A stretch of 64,000 bases of DNA from Leptolinea tardivitalis (GTDB taxonomy: Bacteria; Chloroflexota; Anaerolineae; Anaerolineales; Anaerolineaceae): contig NZ_BBYA01000008.1 in the NCBI RefSeq assembly GCF_001050275.1, positions 62,001 to 126,000 on the forward strand. The letters run 5' to 3'. How positions within the stretch are numbered: position 1 is the stretch's first letter; every line of letters begins with the position of its first letter. Of the stretch, positions 13,355 through 31,047 are shown one piece after another. The notes beneath the pieces are model-generated. The model did no database searches and had not been told where the DNA came from. It saw nothing but the letters and a program-made list of their open reading frames with translations. The position numbers were made by a program, and so were the translations under genes.

Positions 13355-14449
13355 ATGGATGAAGAAAAATACCAGTACATTCAAATAGCAGCTTCCATAC
13401 GGCGTGATATCTATAACGGACTGTATAAAACCGGCGATCTTTTGCCTTCCTTGCGGTCACTGTCGGAAACCTGGCACTGCACCCTCGGAACAGCCCAGCG
13501 TGCATACCAGAAACTGGCTGATGAAGGTCTGGTGACCAGCCATATCGGCAAGGGGACCCGAGTGCTGGGCGTGGTGCCTGTCCAGCCGATGGATTCCCTC
13601 CGGCGGGCGAGCCTTGTCAACCTTGCCGAAAAATTTCTTATTGAAATCCTGACGTCAGGATACACTCCTGCAGAAGTCGAAGATGCCTTTCGAGCAGCTC
13701 TTGAACGCTGGAGAACGGTTTCACGTTCGCAGATTATTGTGAATCAGCAGGTTATTCGTTTTGCCGGCAGCCATGACCCTATGGTGGCCTGGATTGCCAC
13801 CCACTTCACCGATATCACCACAAGCTACGACCTGAATATCAATTTCTCCGGCAGCCTCGCCGGGTTGATGGCATTGGCTGATGGGAAGGCCGATATTGCC
13901 GGGTCCCATCTCTGGGATCGTGAAACAGAAACGTACAACACTCCGGTTCTTAAGAGCCTTTTCCCCGGCGAGAAAATGGTGCTCATCACCATGGCCCACC
14001 GCCGGATAGGATGGTTGCTTGGACAGGGTAACCCGAAGAATTTTCATTCGATCCATGATCTGACCCGGCCGGACATCCATTTTGTAAACCGGCATGCCGG
14101 ATCAGGCACACGGGTGTTCCTGGATGCCCTGTTGAATAAAAACCAGATCGATCCCGCCCTCATACATGGCTACAATAATCAGAAGACCAACCATGCGGAA
14201 ATTGCCCTTGAGATTTCAGAGGGAAAGGCTGACGTTGGCCTGGGGTTGGAAGCCGCGGCCAAAGCCTATAACCTGGAGTTTATATTTGAAAACCTGGAAT
14301 GCTATGACCTCATCGTCAGGGAAAAGACGTTTTATACAAAACCCATGCAAGAGTTGGTCGCCTGGCTGAAAACCGAGCAGTTCCTTCAGATTCTAAATAG
14401 TCTGGGCGGGTATGAGTGCAAGAATTGCGGAGAAGTACGCTGGTCGTGA
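13355..14449 (+). CDS. GntR-type regulator with C-terminal PBP-like (molybdate/tungstate-type) sensor domain
   Basis: Residues ~1-75 are a YtrA/GntR winged helix (QIAASIRRDIYNGLYKTGDLLPSLRSL ... AQRAYQKLADEGLV). From ~125 to the end the protein is a periplasmic-binding-protein-like domain without a signal peptide (GSHDP, AGSHLWDRET, GQGNPKN, NRHAGSGTRVFLD, ADVGLGLEAAAKAY). The same module is fused to MoeA at 29086-31047. It is transcribed divergently from tupA and should sense an oxyanion or pterin-cofactor state to control the tungsten genes. TATAAT at 13338-13343 leaves at most a very short leader. The stop lies 4 bases from the convergent moeB-like gene. Confidence 0.88.
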   Translation: MDEEKYQYIQIAASIRRDIYNGLYKTGDLLPSLRSLSETWHCTLGTAQRAYQKLADEGLVTSHIGKGTRVLGVVPVQPMDSLRRASLVNLAEKFLIEILTSGYTPAEVEDAFRAALERWRTVSRSQIIVNQQVIRFAGSHDPMVAWIATHFTDITTSYDLNINFSGSLAGLMALADGKADIAGSHLWDRETETYNTPVLKSLFPGEKMVLITMAHRRIGWLLGQGNPKNFHSIHDLTRPDIHFVNRHAGSGTRVFLDALLNKNQIDPALIHGYNNQKTNHAEIALEISEGKADVGLGLEAAAKAYNLEFIFENLECYDLIVREKTFYTKPMQELVAWLKTEQFLQILNSLGGYECKNCGEVRWS

Positions 14450-15767: not shown

Positions 15768-16847
15768 TTACCGATCTGTGCAGGAGCAGCATGGATCAAT
15801 GGAAGCCTGGATGAGCGGCATATCTGCCAGATATTGCCCTTTTACCATCGCACGGATGGAGGGGATGTTTACAAAAGATGGTGTACGAATTTTCACACGC
15901 GCGGGCGTATCCGTACCGTTCGATTTCACATAGTAGAAAACTTCACCGCGCGGAGCTTCTGACCGGGCAGTCGCTTCCCCATCAGGAATGGTCAATGGGA
16001 CCTGTTCCGGGCGGATGGGACCGGAAGGCAAGTTCTTCAGGGCTTCTTCGATCAGACGGATGGATTCCATCATCTCCAGTGCACGTACCACCACACGGGC
16101 CTGCACATCGCAGGAATCGAGAACCACTTTCTTGAATCCGAGGTCGTCATAGGCAGCATACGGGAAGGATTCGCGGATATCTTCCTCAATACCGGAAGCT
16201 CGGGCCAGCGGGCCAACAGTTCCGTACATCAGAGCATCGTCTTTTGATAAGGTGCCGATCCCTTTGGTTCGGGCGATGATGGTTTTGTCCTGGGTGAAAA
16301 TCGGAATAACTACTTTCTCCAGGCCTTTCTTGATTTCCTCTGCCATGGCCAGAATACTTTTTGGATCGGTGATATCACGGGTGACACCGCCCAGTGAGAT
16401 CATTCCATAGTTGACCCTGTTCCCGGAAATGGCTTCGAGGATATCCATCACGCGTTCGCGCAGGAAATAAATCTCCATGAACATGCTGTGATACCCGATG
16501 TCTTCCGCACCGATACCCGCCCAGAGCAAATGGGAATGCAGACGTTCAAGCTCACCCATGATGGTGCGGATGTACCGGGCGCGGTCGGGTACTGTGATGC
16601 CGCCAATCTTCTCGACGGCCATCGCCATCGTGCTGGCATGTACATTTGAGCAGATACCGCAGACATGCTCCACCAGCACAAGATCGCGGATATAGTTGCG
16701 GCGCTGTGCCAGAAGTTCGATGGAGCGCATCACAAAACCCACTTCCACCTGGGCATCTTCAACGATTTCACCCTTGCAGGAGAGAGTCAATTTATAGGGT
16801 TCTTCAAAAGCCGGATGCAGCGGACCTAAAGGAAGTTTGTAAGGCAT
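15768..16847 (-). CDS. Group 4 membrane-bound [NiFe]-hydrogenase large (catalytic) subunit
   Basis: Homologous to Ech/CooH/HycE and complex I NuoD. Both Ni-binding cysteine pairs are present: CGIC (Cys63, Cys66) near the N-terminus and DPCCSC (Cys353, Cys356) at the C-terminus. Complex I NuoD lacks them, so this is a hydrogenase-type active site. The protein stops three residues after the last cysteine and has no C-terminal extension, like CooH, so no maturation protease would be needed. Its 359 residues match EchE-like subunits. It is the last gene of the operon, 1 base after the NuoC-like gene. It should bind Ni-Fe(CN)2CO and evolve or take up H2. Confidence 0.92.
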   Translation of the reverse strand: MPYKLPLGPLHPAFEEPYKLTLSCKGEIVEDAQVEVGFVMRSIELLAQRRNYIRDLVLVEHVCGICSNVHASTMAMAVEKIGGITVPDRARYIRTIMGELERLHSHLLWAGIGAEDIGYHSMFMEIYFLRERVMDILEAISGNRVNYGMISLGGVTRDITDPKSILAMAEEIKKGLEKVVIPIFTQDKTIIARTKGIGTLSKDDALMYGTVGPLARASGIEEDIRESFPYAAYDDLGFKKVVLDSCDVQARVVVRALEMMESIRLIEEALKNLPSGPIRPEQVPLTIPDGEATARSEAPRGEVFYYVKSNGTDTPARVKIRTPSFVNIPSIRAMVKGQYLADMPLIQASIDPCCSCTDR

Positions 16848-16848
16848 A

Positions 16849-17283
16849 TTATTTCGCCTCGCTTTCTTTCAACAAAGACTCAGCTACCGATTTGCGGAAA
16901 AATCCTGCAGGCACCTGAGCCGGACGCACCAGAGGACGCGGATCCGGATGTCCGTCAAATTCAACGGCATAGAGATCGTTCATCTCGCGTTCGATCCAAC
17001 TGGCAGATGGCAGGAATGCGGCCAGAGAGGGCAGGTGCTGGTTTTTTGTTGTGACGCGGATGTTTAATGCCAGCGATCCGTGAACGAAGTGATAGAGAAC
17101 ATCGAATTCGCCGTCTCCTCGTTCCAGACAGGTGGCTGTAGAAAGCCGCAATTCTAATTTGTGAACAGAATCTGCCAGTTTCTGCCGGTCAATCGTTTGT
17201 GAGGCGAACCAGATGCCGTCGATCCGTTCTTCCGGTTTTTCAAGGCCGGTTTGTTCCATCAATTTGATTATACGATCATCCAT
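16849..17283 (-). CDS. Hydrogenase subunit, NuoC/EchD-like (30-kDa family)
   Basis: 144 residues with the 30-kDa complex I signature EREMNDLYAVEFDGHPDPRPL near the C-terminus. The protein holds the proximal-cluster and catalytic subunits together and has no cofactor of its own. I chose ATG 17283 because a strong GGAGG site lies 6 bases upstream; the ATG at 17298 would overlap the previous stop. It lies directly between the ferredoxin-type subunit and the large subunit, as expected for a group 4 hydrogenase. Confidence 0.9.
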   Translation of the reverse strand: MDDRIIKLMEQTGLEKPEERIDGIWFASQTIDRQKLADSVHKLELRLSTATCLERGDGEFDVLYHFVHGSLALNIRVTTKNQHLPSLAAFLPSASWIEREMNDLYAVEFDGHPDPRPLVRPAQVPAGFFRKSVAESLLKESEAK

Positions 17284-17297
17284 TATTGCCTCCACCA

Positions 17298-17819
17298 TTA
17301 ATCCTTACTGCCGCTGATACCGGATTTCAGAATCTGACTGTGCAGTCTATTACGGCATTTTTCGCACAGGTTATGTACTTCAGTTGCTTTCTTTGCTGCT
17401 TCTTCTGAATGGTACAGACGGATCAAGGTTTCATGTGGTATTGGGATGATTGTGGCGCCGCAGCGGGTGCAATGCTGGTATTCAACAACATGACTGGTTC
17501 TTTCCAATGAACGCATGCTTACAATCGGAGCCGAGTTTTGTAGAAACGTCAGGGCTTTTGTGGGGCAATACTCCACACATCGGCCGCAGAAGGTACACCG
17601 GCCGGCATCATAATCCCAGTAGCCCATATCACCTTCATCACGGGTTATCTCGATGGCTGCCGGAGAGCAGACATACGTGCAGGTTCCACACAGAGTGCAT
17701 TGCAGAGCATCATGGGTAAGTTCACCCCTGAAATCTACCGGAAAGGGAACCCTGTCAACCGGTTTACGGGTGCGGGATTGTTTTCCCGCGTTTTTGAATA
17801 TGATCTGAAGTATGTTCAT
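17298..17819 (-). CDS. Hydrogenase electron-transfer subunit, NuoI/HycF/EchF-like, with two extra CxxC pairs
   Basis: It carries two classical [4Fe-4S] motifs (Cys41/44/47/51 and Cys75/78/81/85) that relay electrons toward the proximal cluster. The C-terminal ~70 residues carry two further pairs, CTRC (117/120) and CEKC (152/155). These could bind zinc or another Fe-S cluster, as seen in some HycF/HyfH-type proteins. At 173 residues it is longer than EchF. It is followed after 14 bases by the NuoC-like gene. The extra site may be the docking point for the aldehyde oxidoreductase ferredoxin; that is inference. Confidence 0.9.
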   Translation of the reverse strand: MNILQIIFKNAGKQSRTRKPVDRVPFPVDFRGELTHDALQCTLCGTCTYVCSPAAIEITRDEGDMGYWDYDAGRCTFCGRCVEYCPTKALTFLQNSAPIVSMRSLERTSHVVEYQHCTRCGATIIPIPHETLIRLYHSEEAAKKATEVHNLCEKCRNRLHSQILKSGISGSKD

Positions 17820-17834
17820 AATCAGCGCTTCCTA

Positions 17835-18746
17835 TCAGAGGATCAGGGCTGCTGCAACAACCAGTACGGTGGCTGCAATACCCCAGGTCCAGTAGAACTT
17901 GAACGCATGCTGCACTTTCAGGCGGGCTGTTCCGGCAGCTGTAATATTTGTCAACAAGATTACGACTACCGCAACAACAAAGAAAATGAGCAGTTTCATC
18001 CAGATGGAGGTAAACGGTCCGATGAACAGGATGGAAATCAATCCAACCAGCAGCGAAGTTTCCAGAGCGTGTGTCAATTCAAATAAAGCCAGAGGGAGAC
18101 CGTTATATTCCACATGGATACCGGCTACAATTTCTTGTTCGGCGTTGGGGATGGAGAACGGGTTGACTTTCAATTGCGCCAGCAACGCAACAAACAGGGC
18201 AACGGCAGCAAGGATAGTCGCGATTGAGATCGGAGCGGCAGCAAACGTGGCAAGTTTGAACGAATGCAGGCGGACAGCCAGTGCGATCAATGCTCCAAGG
18301 AAGGGAAGGTTGTAGGCAATCGTCAGGATCGCTTCGCGGGTAGCGCCAACCTGGGCATAGACAGATCGGGTCACATATCCGGCAATTACATCCATCAAGA
18401 CTGGCATTTCAATGAGATAGATCAGCAAGACAAGATCACCTTCAAAGGAAATACCCGAACTGCCGGGGACGGGCAGCAAGGCCAGCGCGAAGATAATCGA
18501 GATCAAGCCAATGATCGGCAGGGCGTAGAACAGAACCGGATTAACCCCGTTGGGAATGATGGTTTTCTTCCCGATAAGTTTCCAAAAATCGAAGAAAGGT
18601 TGATAGAACGGAGGCCCTTGTCGGCCCTGCAGCCGGGCAATAAATTTGCGGCTCATCCAGAGCAGGAACCAGCCAAACAGCGCACCACTTAAAAGACCCG
18701 GCCAGAATAACAGGGCCAGGATGGCATTAATCCACCAGTTATTCAT
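17835..18746 (-). CDS. Hydrogenase membrane anchor, NuoH/EchB-like
   Basis: A 303-residue protein with about eight transmembrane helices. It has the family landmarks near the N-terminus (SRKFIARLQGRQGPP, QPFFDFWKLIGKK) and the acidic loop/helix region NAEQEIVAGIHVEYNGLPLALFELTHALE. It forms the interface between the soluble arm and the ion-translocating subunits. The start overlaps the small-subunit gene by 8 bases. Confidence 0.93.
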   Translation of the reverse strand: MNNWWINAILALLFWPGLLSGALFGWFLLWMSRKFIARLQGRQGPPFYQPFFDFWKLIGKKTIIPNGVNPVLFYALPIIGLISIIFALALLPVPGSSGISFEGDLVLLIYLIEMPVLMDVIAGYVTRSVYAQVGATREAILTIAYNLPFLGALIALAVRLHSFKLATFAAAPISIATILAAVALFVALLAQLKVNPFSIPNAEQEIVAGIHVEYNGLPLALFELTHALETSLLVGLISILFIGPFTSIWMKLLIFFVVAVVVILLTNITAAGTARLKVQHAFKFYWTWGIAATVLVVAAALIL

Positions 18747-19209
18747 GGCTCACCTCCCGTTGGCTGCGCGTTTCTCCTTTTTCCAGCATGACAGAGGCCT
18801 TCTGGATGGCTTCCAGAATTGCCTGCGGCCGGGGAGGGCAGCCGGGAACATACAGATCCACCGGAATGACGGCTTCTGCCGACCCTACAATCGTTGGACT
18901 GCCATGAAATACATTGCCGCTGGCAGGGCAGGAACCCAGGGCAATGACCGCCTTGGGTGACGGTATCTGTTGATAAACATCTTTGACCATTTCCTGAGTA
19001 CGGAGTGTAATAGGGCCGGAAATCAATAAAATATCGGTGTGTTTAGGGCTTCCCTGTAAGACAGCCCCGATCTGTTCGCCGTCATAGCGCGGGCTGAAGC
19101 AGGGTGCCACTTCTATGTCACAACCATTGCAGGAGCCAGCATTGATCCTGTAAACCCAGGGAGACCGTCTGCGTGATGTTTGTATCAGGCGTGAGAAGAT
19201 ATTGCTCAT
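18739..19209 (-). CDS. Hydrogenase small subunit, NuoB/EchC-like
   Basis: 156 residues binding the single proximal [4Fe-4S] cluster through Cys27/Cys30 (CNGC), Cys94 (GSC) and Cys124 (PGCPP). The spacing is exactly that of group 4 hydrogenases and complex I NuoB. It forms the electron entry to the Ni-Fe site together with the large subunit. It is tightly packed in the operon. Confidence 0.94.
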   Translation of the reverse strand: MSNIFSRLIQTSRRRSPWVYRINAGSCNGCDIEVAPCFSPRYDGEQIGAVLQGSPKHTDILLISGPITLRTQEMVKDVYQQIPSPKAVIALGSCPASGNVFHGSPTIVGSAEAVIPVDLYVPGCPPRPQAILEAIQKASVMLEKGETRSQREVSHE

Positions 19210-19212
19210 GAA

Positions 19213-20388
19213 TTACCTCCCGCCCATTCCTGGCAGTAATGCTGGAAACAGGCAAGCTACGATCATCAAGATGATCAGCATAATGAAGATTATTCCAACC
19301 AGAGAGTCGTCTTTGACAGCTTTTTTGGTTTCAACAGCTGGCTTGCCGAGCCAGACGCGATGAATTGCCCTGACGTAATACAACAAAGCCAGAGCAGTGG
19401 CCAGTGCCATGCCAATTCCAAGTGTAAGGCCGCCAACTTCTACTCCGGCAAAATACAAACGCCAGCGGCCGAGGAAGCCCATAAGCGGAGGAACACCAAT
19501 CATGCCCAGCGCTCCGGCAATAAAGGCGGCTCCGGCAACGGGGTGGCGCGTTGACAATCCGCGATCCTCCAGAGTGACAGGGTGTTTCAGATCTTTTTCC
19601 GCCACTCCAACGGCGCCAAACAGGAGGAACTTGCAGAGGCTGTGAGACAGGGCGCCGATCAAAGCACCAAGCGCTCCGCCTGTTGTTCCAGCCGCCAATC
19701 CCAGCAATAGATAGCCAATATCATCAATAGTGGAAAATGCCAGCATGCGGCGGATATTCGTCTGTGCCAGTGCCAGCAGGGCGCCGCCAAACATACTGAT
19801 CAACGCCAGAGTGATCCAAATCCACTGGACAGAATTGAATATCCAGGGAGCTTCCACACGCAACAAAGCCAGTTCACCAAATTCTGCCATATCCAGCAGA
19901 CTGATGACCAGAACAGCCGTCATGGCTGTGGATTTTTCAGCCATGGGGGCCAACCAGAAGGCAAAGGGAATAACAGCCAGTTTGATGGCAAAGCCGATCA
20001 AGATGAGGCTGATTACCAGTTTGAGCATTGTTCCAACCGGCGCAGCCGCGGCTTCACTGCCAAACAGGCCGCCCATAACCATGCCGATGGCGGCCAGTAT
20101 TGAACCCACGATAACCGCGAGGAGGAATAATCGGCCTGCCTGCTTATCTTGCTGCCAGACAAACCAGGCCAATAACAGGGCGGCAGCGTCTAGTGCCAGA
20201 GTTCGTCCCATTGTGGATGGTACCCATATACCGGCTAGAATTAATACTGTGGCCGTTGGTGCCATCCATAGAAAATGTTTCCCCTGATTTATTCGAGATG
20301 CATATAGTTCAGCCGCTACTAACAAGAGTACCGAAACGGCTGTAAAGGCAATTTGCCAATCGAGACCTGTAAGTTCTTTTAATGCCAT
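19213..20388 (-). CDS. Antiporter-like membrane subunit, NuoM/NuoN-related, unusually short
   Basis: A 391-residue, multi-helix member of the Mrp/complex I antiporter family. The core blocks are clear: the TM7 lysine segment AIKLAVIPFAFWLAP, then ALAQTNIRRMLAFSTIDDIGY, and GALSHSLCKFLLFGAVG. The family is usually ~480-500 residues. The missing ~100 lie at the N-terminal side, and I cannot find the conserved TM5 glutamate of proton-pumping homologues. It may be a reduced pump or structural module. It is followed after 3 bases by the small-subunit gene. Confidence 0.85.
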   Translation of the reverse strand: MALKELTGLDWQIAFTAVSVLLLVAAELYASRINQGKHFLWMAPTATVLILAGIWVPSTMGRTLALDAAALLLAWFVWQQDKQAGRLFLLAVIVGSILAAIGMVMGGLFGSEAAAAPVGTMLKLVISLILIGFAIKLAVIPFAFWLAPMAEKSTAMTAVLVISLLDMAEFGELALLRVEAPWIFNSVQWIWITLALISMFGGALLALAQTNIRRMLAFSTIDDIGYLLLGLAAGTTGGALGALIGALSHSLCKFLLFGAVGVAEKDLKHPVTLEDRGLSTRHPVAGAAFIAGALGMIGVPPLMGFLGRWRLYFAGVEVGGLTLGIGMALATALALLYYVRAIHRVWLGKPAVETKKAVKDDSLVGIIFIMLIILMIVACLFPALLPGMGGR

Positions 20389-20400
20389 TTCAGCCTCCGC

Positions 20401-22239
20401 CTATACCAGCCAGATGACAACCGCCAGAATAACGGCTGCCCCAAGGATCAAACCAACCGGCGATTTCTCCAGGTTCTCTGCCAGTTTTCTGATCTGTTGG
20501 CTGAATTTATATATTCCCTGCCATATACCGGTGTAAACCGGGTCGGGATTTAATGCTGTGAGTGCAGGAGCAAAAACATCTTCGGTGAATTCCGAAAAAT
20601 CGATGGTGTTGAGTGTATTTCCTTCAGGCAACGGATCGCCACCGGTAAAGGTTGAAACACCTTTGGGTGAAGGCTTTCGCATGGCGAAGATGATCCAGAC
20701 AACAAGAAGGGCAGAAATCGCCAGAACAGCGCCTGCCGTTACCGGAGCACCGGATTGATCCATGTGGAAGCCGAGAAACGTCATGGATTGGGATGCCTCA
20801 AATTTCATGGCTGTCATGGCAGGTTTAGCCAGCCAGTTGACCAGCAACTGGGGAGCGATACCAAAGAGCAGGCTGAAACCGGCCAGAATGCCCATTCCCG
20901 TCAGCATACCTGTAGACGCTTCTTCGATTTTTCTATCTTTCAAATAGTCAGATGGTTCACCGTAGAAGACGCTGACGGTTGCTTTCAAGATATAAAAAGC
21001 GGTGAAAGTGGAAACCAGCCAGGCGATGATCACTACCACCCAGGCACCTGATTCCAGAGCAGCGTCATAGAGCAGCCACTTGGCTACGAATCCGTTGGTC
21101 AAAGGAACACCGATGATTGCCCCGGCAGCGATTAACCAGATCAGGGCTGTACGGGGCATCTGTTTGGCCATGCCGCCCAGAAGGCGCATATCGCGGGTAC
21201 CGGCAGCATGTTGGACGGCACCCGCACACAGGAAGAGGGTTCCTTTAAAGAGCCCGTGACTGAAAACGTAGAATACCCCGGCCAGCGCTCCGAAAGGGGT
21301 GCCAATGCCGAACGCTGTCATGATGTACCCGAGTTGGCTGATGGTGGAAAACGCCAACAGCCGCTTAAGGTCAGTCTGTGCCAGGGCAAACAACGCTCCA
21401 ACGATCATGGTGGCACATCCTACAACCAGCAAGATGGTATTCCAAGAAGGCTGCCAGGGTGAAATGGAATACATGCGGGCAACCAGGTATACACCGGCTT
21501 TGACATAACAGGCGGAATGCAGCAATGCCGAAACAGGTGTGGGGGCATTCATGGCTTCCGGGATCCATGTGTGAATGGGGAACATAACCGATTTCGCCAT
21601 GGCGGCAATAAGGATCAGCAGGAAAATACCGGTGGTAAAATGCGCTGCAATGGCCGGATCTGTCCAAATGAATGTGCCAGCATCTTTATATAGAAGTAGA
21701 ATGGCCAGTAAAAGGGCATAACCCGGAATGTGGGTCATAACCAGAACTTTCCGGGCACCGTTTACGGCAACGGTTTCACTGTACCAGAAACCGACCAGAA
21801 AATACGAGCACAGGCCAATGACTTCCCAGCACAGGTAAACCATAATCAGGCTGCGGGCGCTGACCAGACCGATAAGCCCGGCAATAAAAGTGAGCATGAG
21901 CATATAGAAACGGGTTGTACCTGTTTCATGCTTCATATAATCAATACAATAGACCAAAATGGCGCTGCCAATTCCAGCTGCCATTAAACTGAATACGAGA
22001 CTCAATCCATCAAAATAGAGCAAGAAGGGAGATTCCGCTTGCCATGGAAAGAGGTTTAATTCAACAGTTTGACCGTTGATGATAGAAGGAGCCATCCAAA
22101 GGATGCTTCCCAGAGCAAGTAGACCGGTAACAAATGCCAGCCATCCTTTCGCTTTGGTGGAGAGGAATCTGCCGGATAAAAACAATACCACAACTCCTCC
22201 CAGTAAAATTACCAGAGAAAAGCCTGCCAGAGCGTTCAC
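20401..22239 (-). CDS. Antiporter-like membrane subunit, NuoL/HyfB/EchA-related
   Basis: 612 residues and about 16 transmembrane helices. It keeps the key ion-pathway features, namely the TM5 glutamate in YLCWEVIGLCSYFLVGFWY, the TM7 lysine in AAMAKSVMFPIHTWIPEAM, and the histidine/lysine-rich SALLHSACYVKAG. A C-terminal amphipathic region ending in a single hydrophobic helix resembles the lateral helix of NuoL. It probably translocates protons or Na+ in step with electron flow to the hydrogenase. It is the first gene of the hydrogenase block. Confidence 0.93.
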   Translation of the reverse strand: MNALAGFSLVILLGGVVVLFLSGRFLSTKAKGWLAFVTGLLALGSILWMAPSIINGQTVELNLFPWQAESPFLLYFDGLSLVFSLMAAGIGSAILVYCIDYMKHETGTTRFYMLMLTFIAGLIGLVSARSLIMVYLCWEVIGLCSYFLVGFWYSETVAVNGARKVLVMTHIPGYALLLAILLLYKDAGTFIWTDPAIAAHFTTGIFLLILIAAMAKSVMFPIHTWIPEAMNAPTPVSALLHSACYVKAGVYLVARMYSISPWQPSWNTILLVVGCATMIVGALFALAQTDLKRLLAFSTISQLGYIMTAFGIGTPFGALAGVFYVFSHGLFKGTLFLCAGAVQHAAGTRDMRLLGGMAKQMPRTALIWLIAAGAIIGVPLTNGFVAKWLLYDAALESGAWVVVIIAWLVSTFTAFYILKATVSVFYGEPSDYLKDRKIEEASTGMLTGMGILAGFSLLFGIAPQLLVNWLAKPAMTAMKFEASQSMTFLGFHMDQSGAPVTAGAVLAISALLVVWIIFAMRKPSPKGVSTFTGGDPLPEGNTLNTIDFSEFTEDVFAPALTALNPDPVYTGIWQGIYKFSQQIRKLAENLEKSPVGLILGAAVILAVVIWLV

Positions 22240-22296
22240 TACACACTCCCCGGGTATCTCAATACAAAATCGGATACCTGTTTTTTGAATTTTTGT

Positions 22297-22572
22297 TTAT
22301 CCACCGGCAATCGGTGGGAAAAGCGATATAACATCGCTATCCTTGAGTCGGGTTTGAAGCCCATCTAGACTTCTGTAATCCGTACCATTGATGAGAAAGA
22401 TGCTCAGGCTGCCAAATCCGCCATCTTCGCAGGAAACCCATTTGGCAAAAGATCGTCCATACCTGGCGCAGAGAAACTGAATGAGTTCCTCCAACGTTTG
22501 TTCTGGAACGGAGATGTGTTCTTCTGAAACACGGGTTATATCACGCAATGTGGCGAAATATTTGATTTGCAT
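22297..22572 (-). CDS. Second MoaD/ThiS-family sulfur carrier, AOR-linked
   Basis: A 91-residue ubiquitin-like protein starting MQIKYFATLRDITR and ending SLFPPIAGG with the functional Gly-Gly. The ATG at 22572 gives the normal family length; the longer frame to 22611 adds 13 residues without support. MoaD-like genes beside AOR-family oxidoreductases are common and are thought to help make tungstopterin. It sits between the aldehyde oxidoreductase and the hydrogenase block, separated from the former by a GC-rich hairpin. Confidence 0.9.
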   Translation of the reverse strand: MQIKYFATLRDITRVSEEHISVPEQTLEELIQFLCARYGRSFAKWVSCEDGGFGSLSIFLINGTDYRSLDGLQTRLKDSDVISLFPPIAGG

Positions 22573-22598
22573 GCATCTACCATATAAATGAAATGACT

Positions 22599-22633
22599 CC
22601 ACCCCCCTCAAAAATAGGATTCGAGGGGGGTGG
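22599..22633 (-). promoter_or_regulatory. GC-rich hairpin between aldehyde oxidoreductase and moaD-like gene
   Basis: A perfect 11-bp stem (CCACCCCCCTC 22599-22609 with GAGGGGGGTGG 22623-22633) stands 21 bases after the AOR stop. The minus-strand sequence after it is only moderately T-rich. It could be a leaky terminator that sets the ratio of oxidoreductase to hydrogenase, or protect the AOR message from decay. Confidence 0.55.
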
Positions 22634-22654
22634 AAAGTTGTTCATATCGTTATT

Positions 22655-24460
22655 CTACGCCAAAGACAGGTCGTGGAGTTTTTCAGGTGTGGGTACACCT
22701 TTCGAATCCCAACCGCGTAGAGTGTAGTACTCGGGAAGCATTTTGTCCAGATGGCTGATTTCGCCTTTAGATGGACCGGCTGGAATGGGTTCTTTGGACA
22801 TGCGATCCGGCAGACGGTCATCTTTGCCGGTAATAGCTGATTTCAAACCAAAGAGGCGTTCCAGGTTCCAGATACGATCGCCGGCTTTCATGAAATCGTC
22901 TACCGTGTAGGTAACACCGGTAACAGCTGAAAGCAAGGCGGCCAATTCTTCTGCACCGATACCGAAGGTGGTAAACAGGCAAGAACCGGTCGAATCCAGG
23001 GCAGCAGTCAGGTTTTGGAAGGTGATCACCAGTTGAGGTTTGCCTTCGGTAGCATGCTGGTCAACTTTGAAAGGCACACCAAGAACTTCCGGTGAGATGG
23101 TGTAGCCGCGAACATGGCAGCCGCCGCGGTTGCTGGTGGCGTAATGCAGACCAATACCCTGAATACCGCGGGGATCGTAGGCCGGCATTTCCTGTTTTTT
23201 GGCTGACATAGAATATTCTGGATGTCCATACCGGGTGGCCAGGCGGAAAGATCCTTCTGCCAGTTGATCGCCGAAACCTTCGCGATTTGCTGTCATTTCG
23301 ACAAGTTTGAGCATAGTATCGGCATCGCCAAATTTGACAGCCAAACCGCCCGTATCTTTTCCTGTTATGAACCCGCTTTCATACAGATCCATAGCGCAGG
23401 CGATGGTCGTTGCCATAGTGATGGTATCCAGGCCGAGTTCATTGCAGATAAAGTTGGCTTTGACGACAGCATCCATGTTATCGATACCGCAATCGGAGCC
23501 GAACCCCCACGCTGTTTCATATTCCGGGCCTTCGCCTTCACCAGCGTATTTCGGATTGGTTACTTTGGTAGCGCGACCGCAGGAGATAATGCAGGAGAAA
23601 CAACCGCGCGGCCGGGTAAGGTACTTGGCTGTGAGACTTTCTCCGCCAAATTTATCGGCATTCGGGAAATACCCTTCATGGAAATTGCGGGTCGGTAATG
23701 AGCCAACGCTGTTCAAAATGTTGGTCAATACGTCTGTGCCATAAACACGGAGGCCGGTTCCACCCACAGGATGTTCGGTGATTTTCTTGCGGGCCACCAT
23801 AACAGCTTTTTCAAAAGCTTCAGGATCGGCTACGGCTATGGGTTTGGTTCCAACAACGACAACCGCTTTCAAATTCTTGGAGCCCATTACAGCACCGACA
23901 CCAGAACGACCGGCAGCGCGATGCATTTCATTCATAATAGAGGCAAACAGGACCTTCTTTTCACCGGCAGGGCCGATACAGGCAACTTTTGCATCTTCAT
24001 CCGTTGCAGCGCGAAGGGCTTCGGTTGTATCGGGAACGTTCTTGCCCCAGATTTCAGAGGCATCGCGGATTTCAACGTTATCATCATTGATCCAAAGGTA
24101 AACAGGTTTCTTGGCTGCACCTTCGACGATGACCAGGTCATATCCGGCAAATTTAATTTCAGGTCCAAATGAACCACCGGAATTGGATGCCGCCAGAAGG
24201 CCGGTCAACGGGGCTTTGCAGACCACATCATAGCGGCCCATTGAGGGCGCCATGGTGCCAGAAAGAGGGCCGGGGGCGAAGATCAATTTATTCTCGGCGC
24301 TTAAGGGATCGATTTTGGGATCAATCTCATCTGTTAAAATTTTGCTGGCCAGTCCACGTGCGCCAATGAATAATTTTGCATCCTGCAAATTGGTGGGTTC
24401 TTTTTTAATCTCACCGGTTGTGAGATTTACTCGAAGAATAATGCCAGTCCAACCGTACAT
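22655..24460 (-). CDS. aor: Tungsten-containing aldehyde:ferredoxin oxidoreductase (AOR family)
   Basis: It oxidises an aldehyde to the acid with a bis-pyranopterin tungsten centre and one [4Fe-4S] cluster. The 601-residue protein has the cluster cysteines at 287, 290, 294 and 494, in almost the same positions as in Pyrococcus furiosus AOR. Pterin-binding blocks include GRYDVVCKAPLTGLLAASN, GEGPEYET and DPRGIQGIGLHYATSNRGGCH. The physiological aldehyde cannot be told from sequence; acetaldehyde, benzoyl-type or other aldehydes are all possible. The start codon overlaps the ferredoxin stop by one base and has a strong GGAGG site. Confidence 0.97.
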   Translation of the reverse strand: MYGWTGIILRVNLTTGEIKKEPTNLQDAKLFIGARGLASKILTDEIDPKIDPLSAENKLIFAPGPLSGTMAPSMGRYDVVCKAPLTGLLAASNSGGSFGPEIKFAGYDLVIVEGAAKKPVYLWINDDNVEIRDASEIWGKNVPDTTEALRAATDEDAKVACIGPAGEKKVLFASIMNEMHRAAGRSGVGAVMGSKNLKAVVVVGTKPIAVADPEAFEKAVMVARKKITEHPVGGTGLRVYGTDVLTNILNSVGSLPTRNFHEGYFPNADKFGGESLTAKYLTRPRGCFSCIISCGRATKVTNPKYAGEGEGPEYETAWGFGSDCGIDNMDAVVKANFICNELGLDTITMATTIACAMDLYESGFITGKDTGGLAVKFGDADTMLKLVEMTANREGFGDQLAEGSFRLATRYGHPEYSMSAKKQEMPAYDPRGIQGIGLHYATSNRGGCHVRGYTISPEVLGVPFKVDQHATEGKPQLVITFQNLTAALDSTGSCLFTTFGIGAEELAALLSAVTGVTYTVDDFMKAGDRIWNLERLFGLKSAITGKDDRLPDRMSKEPIPAGPSKGEISHLDKMLPEYYTLRGWDSKGVPTPEKLHDLSLA

Positions 24461-24939
24461 TATGCCACCTCCTGGAAAGCTTCTTTAAATTTCTGGGCAA
24501 AAGCTTTCTTCCTTGAACGTGTAGCCACATTTTCTTCTACATATTCAATTGCATGAACAGGGCAGGCAGCCACGCAACTCGGATTATCATCGCAGGTATC
24601 GCATTTCAAAATCGAATCTGTCACACTGTCGTATACGGCATTGCCAAACGGGCATGCCTGAACACACATCCGGCAGCGGATGCATTTGCTGGCATCATAT
24701 TCGATAAGTGTTGAACCGGTAACGCGGTGCATGGCTCCTGTAGGACAGACGCTGGCACAGGGTGCATCATTGCATTGCTGGCACATCATGGGGACAGAGA
24801 TGCCTTCACGTTCCCATGAGTAGACATGTACACGAGCAGCAGCAGGCCGGAATTGCTTTTCTTTGGCATAGCTGCAGGCTACAACACAATTTTTGCAACC
24901 CGTGCACTTGTCAGGATGGATCATGATCAACTTCGCCAT
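24460..24939 (-). CDS. Four-cluster ferredoxin subunit (AorA/HycB-like)
   Basis: 159 residues with sixteen cysteines in four groups (12/15/18/22, 53/56/61/65, 86/89/92/96, 113/116/122/126), predicting four [4Fe-4S] clusters. Proteins of this layout are the electron-transfer subunits AorA of Aromatoleum-type AOR, HycB of formate hydrogenlyase and related DMSO-reductase partners. The ATG at 24939 is fixed by a perfect AAGGAGG site. It is translationally coupled to aor, so the two products probably form a complex. There is no FAD/NAD subunit (AorC) nearby. Confidence 0.95.
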   Translation of the reverse strand: MAKLIMIHPDKCTGCKNCVVACSYAKEKQFRPAAARVHVYSWEREGISVPMMCQQCNDAPCASVCPTGAMHRVTGSTLIEYDASKCIRCRMCVQACPFGNAVYDSVTDSILKCDTCDDNPSCVAACPVHAIEYVEENVATRSRKKAFAQKFKEAFQEVA

Positions 24940-25050: not shown

Positions 25051-25080
25051 ATATTTCCTATACTTAAGTATAGGAAATAT
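25051..25080. promoter_or_regulatory. 30-bp perfect palindrome upstream of the aldehyde oxidoreductase operon
   Basis: The 15-bp half ATATTTCCTATACTT is followed with no spacer by its exact reverse complement. A third CTATAC half-site lies at 25085-25090. There is no T-run on the minus strand, so it is more likely an operator for a dimeric regulator (the NarL-type regulator or the GntR-sensor protein) than a terminator. Confidence 0.65.
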
Positions 25081-25084
25081 CTTT

Positions 25085-25501
25085 CTATACTTTCAATGCA
25101 TTAATAAGATGCAAAAGTCGTGAGGGTTCATCACCATGATAGATATATTCATCTGCTCCGGCATATAAAACAGCAAATCTATCTTCTTGCGTATTTCCGG
25201 TGACAACAATAACCGGATTGGATGGAAGGTTATGGAGTGAACGGATTACCACTCCTTTGACCTGATTCTTTGAAAGAATTCCGGTAGTTTTTATTAGATG
25301 GCTGGAAAGGCTGAATTTACCAAAATCTGGAAGGTCCCAGGCAAGGATGATCATATCGGGTTCAACCAATGAAGCATCTCGCAGCAATTCACCTACTCGT
25401 CGTACTTCTGAAACAATCTCGATTTCAGTTTGCGCTTGCAAGAACAATTCCAGTGCAAGCCGGATGGATGGATCGTGATGAGCAATAATAACCCTTACCA
25501 T
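25085..25501 (-). CDS. Degenerate response-regulator receiver domain, stand-alone
   Basis: A 138-residue receiver fold (VRVIIAHHDPSIRLALELFL, EPDMIILAWDLPDF, NPVIVVTGNTQEDRFAVLYAGADEYI). The phosphoacceptor position is Ala54 instead of Asp. The acidic pair is His-His-Asp, and the conserved lysine near the end is replaced (YIYHGD). It therefore cannot be phosphorylated normally. It is the third gene of a histidine kinase/regulator operon and lies directly upstream of the palindrome and the aor operon. It may be a phosphorylation-independent partner or decoy for the two-component pair. Confidence 0.8.
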   Translation of the reverse strand: MVRVIIAHHDPSIRLALELFLQAQTEIEIVSEVRRVGELLRDASLVEPDMIILAWDLPDFGKFSLSSHLIKTTGILSKNQVKGVVIRSLHNLPSNPVIVVTGNTQEDRFAVLYAGADEYIYHGDEPSRLLHLINALKV

Positions 25502-25511
25502 TAAGAACCTT

Positions 25512-26162
25512 TTATTCAGATATATCTACCAGACGATGTTTGATTGCCAATGATATTGCTTCACTGCGATTGTGGGCATTCATCTTAGACAGGATATTAG
25601 AGACATGGAATTTCGTCGTTGAGAGACTGAGGGTCAGTATGTCGCTGATATCCTGGTTATTTTTTCCATTGACCATGAGCCGAAGCACGTCCATCTCGCG
25701 GCTGGTAAGGTCAAAATCTATCTGATTTTTCCTGTCACCGGCATTCATTAATAATTGTGTGACATCCGGAGAAAAGATCGTGTTCCCTGCATGCACAGCT
25801 CTGATGGCATTGGCCAACTCATTCGCGGATGTATTTTTGAATAGATAACCCGATACTCCAGCTTCAATGGCATCATGGATTAATTGCGGATCGCTGAAGC
25901 TGGTCAGCGCAATCACTTTTATTTCCGGATGTTTTTGATGTAATTCGTATGCGGCATGCAAACCATCCATACCCGGCATGATCAGGTCCATAAGGATTAC
26001 GTCTGGCCTGATCTTTTCTGCCAGTTTCACGGCTTCATTCCCGTTGGGTGCTTCACCGGCCAGTTCTAGATCGTCAAAAGCCATAAGGAACATGCGCAAA
26101 CCGCTGCGGACCATGGCATGGTCGTCTACGATCATGATCTTGATCGATTTATCCTGAGCCAT
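25512..26162 (-). CDS. NarL/FixJ-family response regulator
   Basis: 216 residues from ATG 26162, which has a GAAGGAG site and lies inside the kinase 3' end (14-base overlap). The receiver has the acidic pair (IVDDH), the phosphoacceptor Asp in ILMDLIMPGMDG, Thr in ALTSF and Lys in YLFKN. The output domain is a LuxR-type helix-turn-helix (LTSREMDVLRLMVNGKNNQDISDIL ... KFHVSNILSKMNAHNRSEAI). It should be activated by the adjacent kinase and probably controls the ferredoxin-aor-hydrogenase operon downstream; the target is inferred from position. Confidence 0.95.
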   Translation of the reverse strand: MAQDKSIKIMIVDDHAMVRSGLRMFLMAFDDLELAGEAPNGNEAVKLAEKIRPDVILMDLIMPGMDGLHAAYELHQKHPEIKVIALTSFSDPQLIHDAIEAGVSGYLFKNTSANELANAIRAVHAGNTIFSPDVTQLLMNAGDRKNQIDFDLTSREMDVLRLMVNGKNNQDISDILTLSLSTTKFHVSNILSKMNAHNRSEAISLAIKHRLVDISE

Positions 26163-27426
26163 TTTTCTCCTTCTGGGTATCATTCCATTCCAATTGAATA
26201 GTCGTTCCGCAGTTCACCTTACTGTCAATTTCCAGAACCGCACCAATGCTTTGCGCTCTTTCCCGCATGATGTTGAATCCGAGATGCATGGCCGAATCAG
26301 GCAAATCTCTGAATCCGCATCCGTCATCCTTGATATGCAGAATGGCATTTTGGCAGGTTCCGTCTTCAATATGCGGAGTAATTCTCAAGAGAATCTCAAT
26401 GTTTTCGGCTTCTGCATGCTTGAAGATATTATTCAGAGCTTCCTGGGTTATTCGATAGAACGTGAGCCGGACCTCGACCGGCAGAAACGCCTGTCCTTTA
26501 ATATCCAGGGTCACGGGTTTGCGTAATCGTCCCGAAGCGGTTTCGACCAATTGGCGCAGCAAATCGTCAAGAGGAGTTTCTTCAAGAGCATGAGGACGCA
26601 ATTCAAGCAATAAAGACCTCATCTCTGCCAGGGCTCCCCGGGTCAATAATTGAAGTTCACTTAATCCTTCTAACCCTTTTTGTGGGTTCCTTTCCATAAT
26701 AATGGGTAGTGTTTCAGCTATCAGGCTGGCAGAAAACAGATTTTGGGTGACAGAATCATGCAATTCACGCGCCAGACGATTCCGTTCTTCGGCCACGGCA
26801 TCCTGCTCGATACGCATGCGTAATCGGGCATTATCTATGGCCAGGGCAGCCTGGATGGAAAAATCTTTCGCCAGCGATATCTCTTCTTCGGTTATGTGAT
26901 GTTCATTGAGATAATAAAGTGTCAGAGAGCCGTAGTTTTCTTCCCGAATCTCAATAGGAATGGATAGAAGGGAAGAAAATTGAGATGAAAGCCTGTTCAT
27001 CGCTTCAATAAGATCTTCTGAAACGCCGGTTTCTTCACTCAATAGACGGGTATTGGGTACGAAAATCGGTTTTTTGGTTAATGCCGCATTCCCTGTGGCA
27101 AATTTACCCAAAGGAATGTTTCCATACTCAATGTATTCATTAGAGAGTCCAACAAGTGCCTGAATGGTCAGCATACCATTCATTTGAAGGTGGTATATCG
27201 CTGCGGCATCTGCATTGAGAAGTGGACAAGCCTGGTTGACGATGTAATTCAGTAATTTCTCTAATGATAGATTGGTATTAAGAACTGCCAGTGTTTCTCT
27301 CAAGCTGGCAGCGACAATCTGGCGTCGTTCAAGTTCTGCGATCTTTTCTGTCTCTGTGATAGAGGTTGAACGTTTCATCATTCCATTATATCGTTCACCG
27401 TCTAAATAACTAACTGAATAGATCAT
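26149..27426 (-). CDS. GAF-domain sensor histidine kinase (NarX/HisKA_3 type)
   Basis: About 425 residues without transmembrane helices, so a cytoplasmic sensor. A GAF domain spans roughly residues 45-205, followed by the HisKA_3 phosphoacceptor region (LARELHDSVTQ, His223) and a HATPase_c domain (EALNNIFKHAEAENIEI, DDGCGF, LGFNIMRERAQSIGA). Cytoplasmic GAF kinases of this type often sense redox or small ligands; the ligand here is unknown. It is co-transcribed with the regulator and the degenerate receiver. ATGs at 27381/27378 are alternative starts. Confidence 0.92.
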   Translation of the reverse strand: MIYSVSYLDGERYNGMMKRSTSITETEKIAELERRQIVAASLRETLAVLNTNLSLEKLLNYIVNQACPLLNADAAAIYHLQMNGMLTIQALVGLSNEYIEYGNIPLGKFATGNAALTKKPIFVPNTRLLSEETGVSEDLIEAMNRLSSQFSSLLSIPIEIREENYGSLTLYYLNEHHITEEEISLAKDFSIQAALAIDNARLRMRIEQDAVAEERNRLARELHDSVTQNLFSASLIAETLPIIMERNPQKGLEGLSELQLLTRGALAEMRSLLLELRPHALEETPLDDLLRQLVETASGRLRKPVTLDIKGQAFLPVEVRLTFYRITQEALNNIFKHAEAENIEILLRITPHIEDGTCQNAILHIKDDGCGFRDLPDSAMHLGFNIMRERAQSIGAVLEIDSKVNCGTTIQLEWNDTQKEKNGSG

Positions 27427-29085: not shown

Positions 29086-31047
29086 ATGAGCATCTACCTT
29101 CACGATATTCCATTAACAGAAGCAAAATCACGTTTTCAACAGGAATTGAAAAACGCCGGCCTGTGGGGAGTTTTAGGACAGGAAGAAATTCCGCTTGATG
29201 AAAAAGCGGCCGGGCGGGTTCTGGCAGAATCGGTCTGGGCTCGGATTTCCAGTCCGCATTATCACGCTTCCGCCATGGATGGTTTTGCCATTCGGGCAGA
29301 AAATTCTCTGGGAGCCGCCCCATCAAACCCGGTTCAATTACGGTATGAGGAACAGGCAGTCTATGTAGACACGGGTGATCCATTGCCGCAATGGGCCAAT
29401 GCCGTCATTCCGATTGAAAATGTTGAACCGTTGGATGACACTGGTCATATCAGCACCGAACCGAGGCATCCTTATTCCATCCGCATCCGGGCTGCCATTA
29501 CTCCCTGGAGTCATGTGCGGCCAATGGGTGAAGATATAGTGGCGACCGAGTTGGTCATACCCGCCGGGCAGACTCTTCGTCCGGTGGACCTTGGGGCTCT
29601 GGCTGCTTCGGGTCAAACGAGTCTGAAAGTCGCCCGGGTGCCACGAGTGGCCATTTTGCCAACGGGTACCGAATTGGTTCCCATTGGCAGTGACCTGAAA
29701 GCCGGGGATATCATCGAGTTCAACTCTGTGGTTCTGGGAGCTCAGGTGAATCAGTGGGGTGGAAAGGCAGACCGCTTTCCAATCACCATTGATAATTTTG
29801 ATGCCATTTGTCAGCGTGTAGAAGAGGCTGCCAGAGACCATGATTTGATTTTATTGAATGCCGGATCATCGGCGGGATCGGAAGATTTTTCTGTGCATGT
29901 GACCGAAAAATTGGGAACAGTCCTTGTACACGGTGTGGCCGTCAGGCCGGGGCACCCGGTTATCCTCGGGATGATTACCCGCAAAGATAACTCTAAGATT
30001 CCGATCATAGGCGTGCCGGGATACCCGGTTTCTGCTGCGTTGACAGGAGAGATATTTGTACAACCCTTGCTGACTTTATGGCTAGGAAGGAAGGATCCCT
30101 CTCAGGAACCTGTCATTACTGCAAAAATCACCCGTAAAGTAAACTCACCCCAGGGTGACGATGATTTTATGCGTGTGGCTGTCGGCCGGGTAAACGGGCA
30201 GGTACTGGCGGCTCCTCTGGCCAAAGGTGCCGGTATGATCAATACCCTGGTACACGCAGATGGCATCGCACTTGTCCCCAGAGGGATTCAAGGTCTTGAA
30301 GCTGGAGATGATGTGCAGGTGAAGCTGTACCGAAGCCTGAAAGAAATTGACCAGACGATTTTCGCCATTGGTTCTCATGATCTGACTCTGGATATTCTGG
30401 CACAATTTCTGGCCCAAAGGGAGCGCAGACTGGTGTCTGTTAATGTAGGCAGCCAGGGTGGGTTGGTGGCTCTGCGCCGTGGCGAAGCTCATTTCGCCGG
30501 ATCGCATCTGCTTGACCCGGAGACAGGGGTTTATAACAAATCGTATATAAACCAATATTTGCCGGATACACCGGTATCTGTCTTCAACTGGGTGGGGCGT
30601 GAGCAGGGATTGATTGTTCAAAAAGGAAATCCCAAAAATATTCTGTCACTGAAAGATTTGGAACGATCGGATATTTCCTATGTAAACCGGCAGCGCGGCT
30701 CTGGAACCCGTGTACTGCTGGATTACCAATTAGGAAAACTTGGGTTATCGGCAGAGAGAATTTCAGGATATGCACAGGAAGAATACACCCATCTGGCAGT
30801 GGCCGCCGCCGTAAAATCAGGACGGGCAGATTGCGGTATGGGAATAACCGCTGCCGCCAATGCACTGGAATTGGATTTTATTCCGCTGTATACAGAACAA
30901 TATCAGCTCGTCATCCCCAATACTGTTCTTGAAAATCACTTATTGGATCCATTATTTGATCTGACTCAAGATCCAGAGTTTAAAAAGGCGGTACTCAAAC
31001 TCCCTGGATATACTGTATCCGATATGGGGCGATTGGTAGAACAATAG
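29086..31047 (+). CDS. moeA: MoeA fused to a PBP-like substrate-binding domain
   Basis: Residues 1-~425 are a second complete MoeA (HASAMDGFAIRAENS, PTGTELV, NAGSSAGSEDFS, GVPGYPVSAA). Residues ~430-653 are a periplasmic-binding-like domain (GSHDLTLD, AGSHLLDPET, KGNPKN, NRQRGSGTRVLLD, ADCGMGITAAANAL) without signal peptide. This module is shared with the GntR regulator at 13355-14449. The fused domain could deliver or sense the oxyanion (tungstate or molybdate) for insertion. MoeA-PBP fusions are known in archaea and some bacteria; the ligand here is inferred. Confidence 0.94.
   Translation: MSIYLHDIPLTEAKSRFQQELKNAGLWGVLGQEEIPLDEKAAGRVLAESVWARISSPHYHASAMDGFAIRAENSLGAAPSNPVQLRYEEQAVYVDTGDPLPQWANAVIPIENVEPLDDTGHISTEPRHPYSIRIRAAITPWSHVRPMGEDIVATELVIPAGQTLRPVDLGALAASGQTSLKVARVPRVAILPTGTELVPIGSDLKAGDIIEFNSVVLGAQVNQWGGKADRFPITIDNFDAICQRVEEAARDHDLILLNAGSSAGSEDFSVHVTEKLGTVLVHGVAVRPGHPVILGMITRKDNSKIPIIGVPGYPVSAALTGEIFVQPLLTLWLGRKDPSQEPVITAKITRKVNSPQGDDDFMRVAVGRVNGQVLAAPLAKGAGMINTLVHADGIALVPRGIQGLEAGDDVQVKLYRSLKEIDQTIFAIGSHDLTLDILAQFLAQRERRLVSVNVGSQGGLVALRRGEAHFAGSHLLDPETGVYNKSYINQYLPDTPVSVFNWVGREQGLIVQKGNPKNILSLKDLERSDISYVNRQRGSGTRVLLDYQLGKLGLSAERISGYAQEEYTHLAVAAAVKSGRADCGMGITAAANALELDFIPLYTEQYQLVIPNTVLENHLLDPLFDLTQDPEFKKAVLKLPGYTVSDMGRLVEQ

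Follow-up and report, generated by a model that had tools for sequence, protein, structure and literature searches.

A probable aldehyde hydrogenlyase gene cluster in Leptolinea tardivitalis and the exchange of dehydrogenases on one type of group 4 [NiFe] hydrogenase

The window, a stretch of 64,000 nucleotides from contig 8 (NZ_BBYA01000008.1) of the 3.69 Mb genome of Leptolinea tardivitalis, carries ten adjoining genes on its minus strand (15768-24939) that probably encode an energy-conserving aldehyde hydrogenlyase. The cluster consists of an AorA/HycB-like ferredoxin, a tungsten-type aldehyde:ferredoxin oxidoreductase (AOR), a MoaD/ThiS-family sulfur carrier and the seven subunits of a group 4 [NiFe] hydrogenase (NuoL-like, NuoN-like, small, NuoH, NuoI, NuoC and large; Table 1). 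An earlier note, made from the letters alone, had described this make-up, the common strand and the close order, all of which are borne out by the list of open reading frames (ORFs) and by the Pfam and NCBIfam assignment of each gene. Its reading of AOR, HycB-like ferredoxin and hydrogenase as one hydrogenlyase-type unit is supported, at the level of sequence, by co-occurrence in related genomes, by a docking-type cysteine quartet and by the exchange of the dehydrogenase on the same hydrogenase. This exchange, a hairpin between AOR and MoaD and the shortening of the NuoN-like subunit go beyond that note. Some Chloroflexota seem to possess a membrane system that converts aldehydes to acids and H2 and stores energy in doing so, and that is built on a hydrogen-making unit whose fuel-oxidising enzymes were swapped in evolution.

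The physical assembly, the electron path and its direction, ion pumping, the metal and the substrate of such a machine are what we infer from these parts. At its tungsten-pterin site, AOR would convert the aldehyde into the corresponding acid, and its [4Fe-4S] cluster would pass the electrons to AorA, which is proposed to act as the electron linker through its four predicted [4Fe-4S] clusters. Docked on the NuoI/HycF-like subunit, AorA would deliver them to the two clusters of NuoI, from which they would travel by way of the single cluster of the small subunit to the large subunit, whose [NiFe] site would reduce protons to H2. The potential drop from the aldehyde to H+/H2 could power the export of ions by way of NuoH and of the antiporter-like subunits, in the manner of complex I relatives; the acetate/acetaldehyde couple lies at about -0.58 V and H+/H2 at -0.41 V.

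Alignment confirms the intact tungsten-pterin and iron-sulfur motifs and the nickel ligands that the earlier note had seen. When aligned to 1AOR, the catalytic subunit retains the CxxCxxxC motif, the distant cysteine (in DSTGSC), GPEYE and RGGCH, whose cysteines, glutamate and histidine we take to have the functional roles usually given to them, and together with its AFOR domains these residues place it in the WOR/AOR family. Its closest solved chains are 9mqx_D (799 bits) and 1aor_A (701 bits), followed at a distance by WOR5 (234) and benzoyl-CoA reductase (227). AorA is closest to 9mqx_E and 8c0z_C, and next to 6x1o_B, HycB3 (7qv7_A) and 7z0s_B. The large subunit has both CxxC pairs, with EHVCGICSNVH near the N end and DPCCSCTDR as the extreme C-terminal end, and the four cluster cysteines of the small subunit are all in place in the alignment, so that both the nickel ligands and the proximal cluster ligands of a hydrogenlyase are present. 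Identity as complex I was rejected, since the two nearest NuoD homologues of the genome (own_L003, own_L004) lack the CxxC pairs that the cluster's large subunit has. HypD, a maturase for [NiFe] sites, is encoded elsewhere in the genome. In the NuoL-like subunit, the ion-path residues named by the earlier note, which we take to be the Glu of transmembrane helix 5 (TM5), the Lys of TM7 and the Lys of TM12, are likewise retained in the alignment.

The association between AOR and this hydrogenase is not confined to the window. A family survey covered 147 genomes, many of them with short contigs, and AOR was sought within 20 kb of each large-subunit locus. The neighbourhood check proposed in the earlier note turned out in its favour, with AOR found in 8 of the 13 family loci whose large subunit reaches 60% identity or more, compared with 0/82 paralogues at 40-52% identity and 0/36 at 36% or less, counts in which short contigs could hide some cases; on these figures, an AOR neighbourhood common to the group 4 hydrogenases of these bacteria was rejected. 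The five family loci without a nearby AOR comprise two with a molybdenum aldehyde oxidoreductase of MOP type, one with a Ni-CO dehydrogenase (CODH) and two in which the contig ends before the AOR slot, and for one of the latter (G422) the AorA-AOR-MoaD-NuoL part sits on a second fragment. A survey of the order, in which 350 genomes were searched, added six loci, all in a second family (f139): one complete AOR-type locus (L171, genome G806), four of CODH type and one cut by the contig. The hydrogenase clade numbers 19 loci (10 AOR-type, 2 MOP-type, 5 CODH-type and 2 contig-cut), and the AOR-type gene order is maintained in 10 genomes from two families, in nine of them on a single contig, a recurrence that chance does not explain. 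Among 301 genomes sampled from the phylum, the window's own genome was the sole match at E 1e-112, and nothing else above 48% identity was found among 298 genomes sampled from the class at E 1e-90; the order survey was a sample as well. The nearest named relatives found are Leptolinea sp. HRD-7, a Leptolinea metagenome-assembled genome (MAG), an Anaerolineaceae MAG and Ornatilinea apprima, which is a named strain possessing the cluster; Leptolinea and Ornatilinea both belong to the Anaerolineaceae (Anaerolineales, Chloroflexota). Two Leptolinea relatives hold a second, divergent AOR (40-41% identity) about 10 kb from the first (G358:C1:2158829 and G357:C37:10581). At E 1e-90 no such second AOR was listed for the window genome, which shows a weak AFOR_C match on contig 9.

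Behind its two [4Fe-4S] motifs, the NuoI-like subunit of the window ends in a cysteine quartet (C117, C120, C152 and C155) that is aligned in 15/15 rows, including HycF and HyfH. In the formate hydrogenlyase (FHL) of E. coli, the C-terminal extension of HycF with its cysteine quartet contacts HycB (PMC9474812; articles are cited here from the available parts of their text). This extension is the sequence-level evidence on the fit between ferredoxin and hydrogenase arm on which the earlier note had made its reading depend. All 18 available NuoI sequences of the clade have this quartet, compared with none of 21 paralogues. The latter belong to a further type of group 4 hydrogenase found in these bacteria (the second type), represented by a copy in the window's own genome (G000:C11) and by 20 loci chosen mainly for their long contigs. 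Within the 14-19 kb read at each of these 20 loci there were no matches to AorA, CooF, AOR or CooS, and ORFs with at least 12 cysteines, present in nine of them, gave no AorA or CooF match at E 1e-4; some of these ORFs are NuoI itself. A HycI-like protease accompanies 19/20 control loci, and no HycI match was obtained in the window or in the 19 clade stretches. Similarly, the large subunit extends past DPCxxCxxR in 20/21 controls and ends there in all 18 full-length clade members. The window hydrogenase thus has none of the traits of the second type, namely the protease, the C-terminal extension and the absence of both linker and quartet. The distribution of the quartet favours a physical aldehyde hydrogenlyase over the mere sharing of ferredoxin. 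As a side observation, the second-type large subunit of L170 ends in VDLCIACADR, in which Leu replaces the Pro of DPC, and has neither a C-terminal extension nor a protease match.

The same hydrogenase block is preceded by different dehydrogenases in different genomes. In L131 (346-3621) and L135 (490-3872), a MOP-type protein and an AorA-type linker stand ahead of it. The L131 MOP-type protein, 918 aa long, matches the aldehyde oxidoreductase of Desulfovibrio gigas (1sij) over residues 3-905 with 1392 bits, is 83% identical to its counterpart in L135 and has Pfam domains entirely unlike those of AOR; XdhC- and MobA-like genes lie downstream of the block in L131. Since two unrelated aldehyde oxidoreductases occupy one slot, an aldehyde is the likeliest substrate. 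Five further loci (L172, L173, L174, L176 and L138) combine a linker, CooS and a NuoL-NuoN ORF of about 1000 aa; the best solved match of the L138 CODH is the CO dehydrogenase chain 6t7j_B (785 bits), and the other four are 76-77% identical to it. Wherever the assembly covers that end of the cluster, a HycB-like linker is found (17/17 loci; the one in L176 is truncated at its start). MOP loci have linkers that share 60-61% identity with the window AorA and cluster with those of AOR type in the linker tree, which indicates that the AorA-type linker stayed in place through the exchange between AOR and MOP, whichever direction this took. The CODH-locus linkers that were compared share 37-45% identity with AorA and form a separate group; they are called CooF-like from their position, Pfam having been run on the L138 linker only. 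Company by AorA as a general habit of the AOR relatives in these bacteria was rejected, as no adjacent AorA match was seen beside any of six relatives (48-53% identity) chosen from far more numerous AOR matches, one of them on a contig of 7.5 kb.

In a tree of the large subunit (one gene, 29 rows, of which L138 is a fragment), the two hydrogenase types form separate groups with support of 100/100 each. When the second type serves as outgroup, the CODH loci branch first and the AOR loci (98/95) and MOP loci are sisters (AOR plus MOP, 99/96); the drawing is midpoint-rooted, with the root in the same place. On whether the MOP loci are sister to the AOR type or nested within it, the trees of linker and large subunit disagree. 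In the comparison with HycE and HyfG, the window large subunit falls outside their pair, whose position relative to the two types is left unfixed. The early branching of the CODH loci suggests that a CO hydrogenlyase was refitted for aldehydes, the CODH version probably being the older form.

Taken together, these patterns incline us towards a broader proposal. The Anaerolineales would possess a modular chassis (linker, NuoL, NuoN, HydS, NuoH, NuoI, NuoC and HydL) on which the electron donor was exchanged between three unrelated enzyme families, namely tungsten AOR, the molybdenum MOP type and Ni-CO dehydrogenase, the last of them probably ancestral. The AOR and MOP versions, which occur together in two genomes (G422 and G361), would then be the first energy-conserving aldehyde hydrogenlyases, and a hairpin of variable sequence would set the ratio of the two blocks.

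The main competitor of a physical hydrogenlyase, in our view rather unlikely, is that AOR and AorA reduce soluble ferredoxin, which a group 4 hydrogenase then oxidises with ion pumping in the manner of Mbh or Ech, the cluster merely grouping them. Known AORs that have an AorA-like partner are held to use ferredoxin or NAD (PMC12096430, PMC13328260), WorLS pairs being classified as ferredoxin-dependent in the latter, so a soluble route is possible; the top solved relative of the large subunit is moreover Mbh (6cfw_L, 299 bits, against 221 bits for HycE). Several features of the loci also weigh against a tightly coupled machine. A strong hairpin occupies the gap between AOR and MoaD in 10/10 AOR loci (z -3.3 to -9.0, by folding; the L133 and L134 hairpins, folded up to the Met common to the MoaD sequences, have z -4.4 each), the gap between linker and NuoL in 2/2 MOP loci (z -4.4 and -4.9), and the position after CooS in the CODH locus L138 (z -4.6). 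The remaining four CODH gaps gave z -1.7 to -3.2, with only the CooS-adjacent part folded in two of them. The dehydrogenase and hydrogenase blocks share a strand and a constant order, but the hairpin in between raises the likelihood that they are expressed separately or in tuned amounts, and because AorA sits on the AOR side this is the chief sequence-level argument for loose coupling. The stem is preserved while its sequence varies among loci, and mostly no clear T tract accompanies it (weak in the window, none visible by eye in several others), and it could be a partial terminator, an attenuator or an mRNA stabiliser; either transcripts may end there, or the message upstream may be protected, in which case dehydrogenase and linker would be made in excess of the membrane arm. 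In addition, a MOP-family gene with 31-33% identity to its L131 counterpart immediately precedes the second-type hydrogenase in 3/20 controls (L156, L157 and L161), which have neither HycB-like linker nor quartet and possibly represent another pairing of Mo-hydroxylase and hydrogenase. Such neighbourhoods can therefore arise without a docked linker, and neighbourhood on its own is weak evidence, so that quartet and linker carry the argument. Finally, the NuoN-like subunit has a shorter N-terminal part than HyfD and HyfF, and Asp or Ser replaces their Glu in the three clade sequences aligned; this shortening and the lack of conservation of the TM5 acid make pumping less sure. What nevertheless tips the balance from soluble ferredoxin to a docked hydrogenlyase is that the HycF-type quartet runs through the whole clade and is missing from all paralogue clusters, that a HycB-like linker is maintained with three unrelated dehydrogenases, and that the same bacteria own another hydrogenase type, presumably the ferredoxin-using one, without a linker match.

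Two other readings keep the coupling and change its use. Running in reverse, with H2 and ion influx driving the reduction of carboxylic acids to aldehydes, seems very unlikely, even though the AOR of Aromatoleum is able to reduce acids with H2 (PMC12096430, PMC10413684) and FHL is reversible (PMC9474812). Anaerolineae have been described as fermenters capable of H2 production (PMC4877987), which speaks for H2 evolution, and weak hydrogenase transcription in syntrophy has also been reported for them in the same article. Acid reduction by H2 is also uphill at standard state, and the CODH and MOP partners of the sister loci are normally electron donors. A hydrogenase-coupled AOR acting on another substrate, such as a sulfonate, is more improbable still. 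The WOR family does contain a sulfonate oxidase and a benzoyl-CoA reductase (PMC13328260), but the window AOR scores far higher against chains deposited as aldehyde:ferredoxin oxidoreductases than against WOR5 or benzoyl-CoA reductase, and an aldehyde oxidoreductase of the D. gigas type takes its place in the sister loci.

Table 1. Cluster genes and associated features in the window
Feature	Coordinates	Strand	Basis or remark
GAF histidine kinase, LuxR-type response regulator and receiver-like protein	25085..27426	-	directly upstream of the cluster
AorA/HycB-like ferredoxin, 159 aa, 16 Cys	24460..24939	-	ATG at 24939; Pfam/NCBIfam, solved relatives
Tungsten-type AOR catalytic subunit, 601 aa	22655..24460	-	both AFOR domains
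Strong RNA hairpin in the AOR/MoaD gap	22597..22635	-	folding; 87-nt intergenic stretch, z -6.4
MoaD/ThiS-family sulfur carrier, 91 aa	22297..22572	-	likely ATG 22572; Met common to relatives
NuoL-like antiporter subunit, 612 aa	20401..22239	-	Pfam/NCBIfam, alignment
NuoN-like antiporter subunit, 391 aa, N end short	19213..20388	-	Pfam/NCBIfam, alignment
Hydrogenase small subunit (NuoB-like), 156 aa, four cluster ligands	18739..19209	-	Pfam/NCBIfam, alignment
NuoH-like membrane subunit, 303 aa	17835..18746	-	Pfam/NCBIfam
NuoI/HycF-like subunit, two [4Fe-4S] motifs and C-terminal Cys quartet	17298..17819	-	NCBIfam, alignment
NuoC-like subunit, 149 aa	16849..17298	-	Pfam/NCBIfam
Group 4 [NiFe] hydrogenase large subunit (NuoD-like)	15768..16847	-	Pfam, solved relatives, motifs, tree

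The ORF listed for MoaD (104 aa) opens upstream of its likely start codon. The GAF kinase and LuxR-type regulator are the probable regulators of the cluster, and kinase and/or regulator are likewise found upstream in L126-L128, L130 (regulator only), L132-L134 and L171; L136 differs in having a divergent pair on the downstream side. Neighbouring genes include an ABC transporter made up of a PBP_like_2 binding protein, a permease and a TOBE-domain ATPase, presumably of tungstate/molybdate type, as well as MoeA/MoeB-like genes (two MoeA among them), a ThiF-rhodanese protein and a GntR-PBP regulator. One MoeA is fused to a PBP-like domain (29086-31047) and stands beside the separate MoeA, and the GntR regulator (13355-14449) bears the same Pfam PBP domain as the fused protein. 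Upstream of AorA lies a perfect 30-base palindrome (25051-25080), with counterparts at a similar site in L126 (CCTGTACTTAAGTACAGG) and L127 (CCTGTACTAAAGTACAGG), which is possibly an operator or a terminator for the upstream regulator gene.

If an energy-conserving aldehyde hydrogenlyase is indeed encoded here, aldehyde oxidation, commonly regarded as a way to detoxify or to feed ferredoxin, would be a direct entry into energy conservation, with H2 and an ion gradient produced by one machine. It would also add a new class to the tungsten enzyme scheme, offer a system with exchangeable input in which the acquisition of electron donors by complex I relatives can be studied, and suggest a route by which fermenting Chloroflexota pass electrons to methanogens. 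Furthermore, because two unrelated aldehyde oxidoreductases replace each other, the question of the substrate becomes testable, for example in Ornatilinea apprima.

The earlier note knew of no described complex of this make-up, and the literature searched agrees. Within the open literature (subscription papers and preprints lay outside it), no paper with the term 'aldehyde hydrogenlyase' or similar wording was found, and in the text available none describes a group 4 hydrogenase together with AOR or MOP. The accessible text of a 2025 review (PMC12096430) describes no such AOR cluster. None of the five WOR classes in the June 2026 classification (PMC13328260) has a membrane hydrogenase in the parts available, where hydrogenase is named twice, both times for bifurcating relatives, and 'Chloroflex' and 'NiFe' do not occur in the main text. 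Asgard archaea have both AORs and group 4 hydrogenases, though not in one cluster, according to the available text of PMC11291895. The hydrogenlyase principle is thus already known, and the AOR and MOP versions and their exchange on a single chassis are undescribed as far as these searches reach.

Among known systems, the AorAB(C) and WorLS enzymes (Aromatoleum AOR, 8c0z; 9mqx; P. furiosus WOR5, 6x1o) share the pairing of a catalytic subunit with a four-cluster small subunit, whereas the window pair adjoins a membrane hydrogenase. The start of AorA, MAKLIMIHPDKC, shows no leader on inspection by eye, and the trait of WOR Class V, a Tat signal or transmembrane segment in WorS (PMC13328260), is therefore not seen. 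In the aldehyde oxidoreductase chain of D. gigas, electrons also flow from aldehyde to H2 in vitro, but through four soluble proteins by way of flavodoxin, the proposed partner of the D. gigas MOP enzyme, and cytochrome c3, with no membrane complex (PMC10223205). P. furiosus Mbh (6cfw) is the top solved relative of the window large subunit, yet 6cfw_N (139 aa) covers only residues 3-92 of NuoI and not the quartet part. Mbh receives its electrons from ferredoxin. FHL-1 (hyc) and FHL-2 (hyf) of E. coli resemble the window cluster in their HycB-like linker, quartet-bearing HycF-type NuoI, group 4 [NiFe] hydrogenase and antiporter-like subunits. Identity with formate hydrogenlyase was nonetheless rejected, as FdhF is missing, AOR occupies its slot, and the large subunit falls outside HycE/HyfG, is nearer to MbhL and lacks the C-terminal extension. 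The clusters of CODH and energy-converting hydrogenase, well known from hydrogenogenic CO oxidisers (PMC6344411), likewise join a dehydrogenase and a CooF/HycB-like protein to a group 4 hydrogenase, and five loci of the present clade are of this kind; in the window, AOR and an AorA-type linker stand in the place of CooS and its linker.

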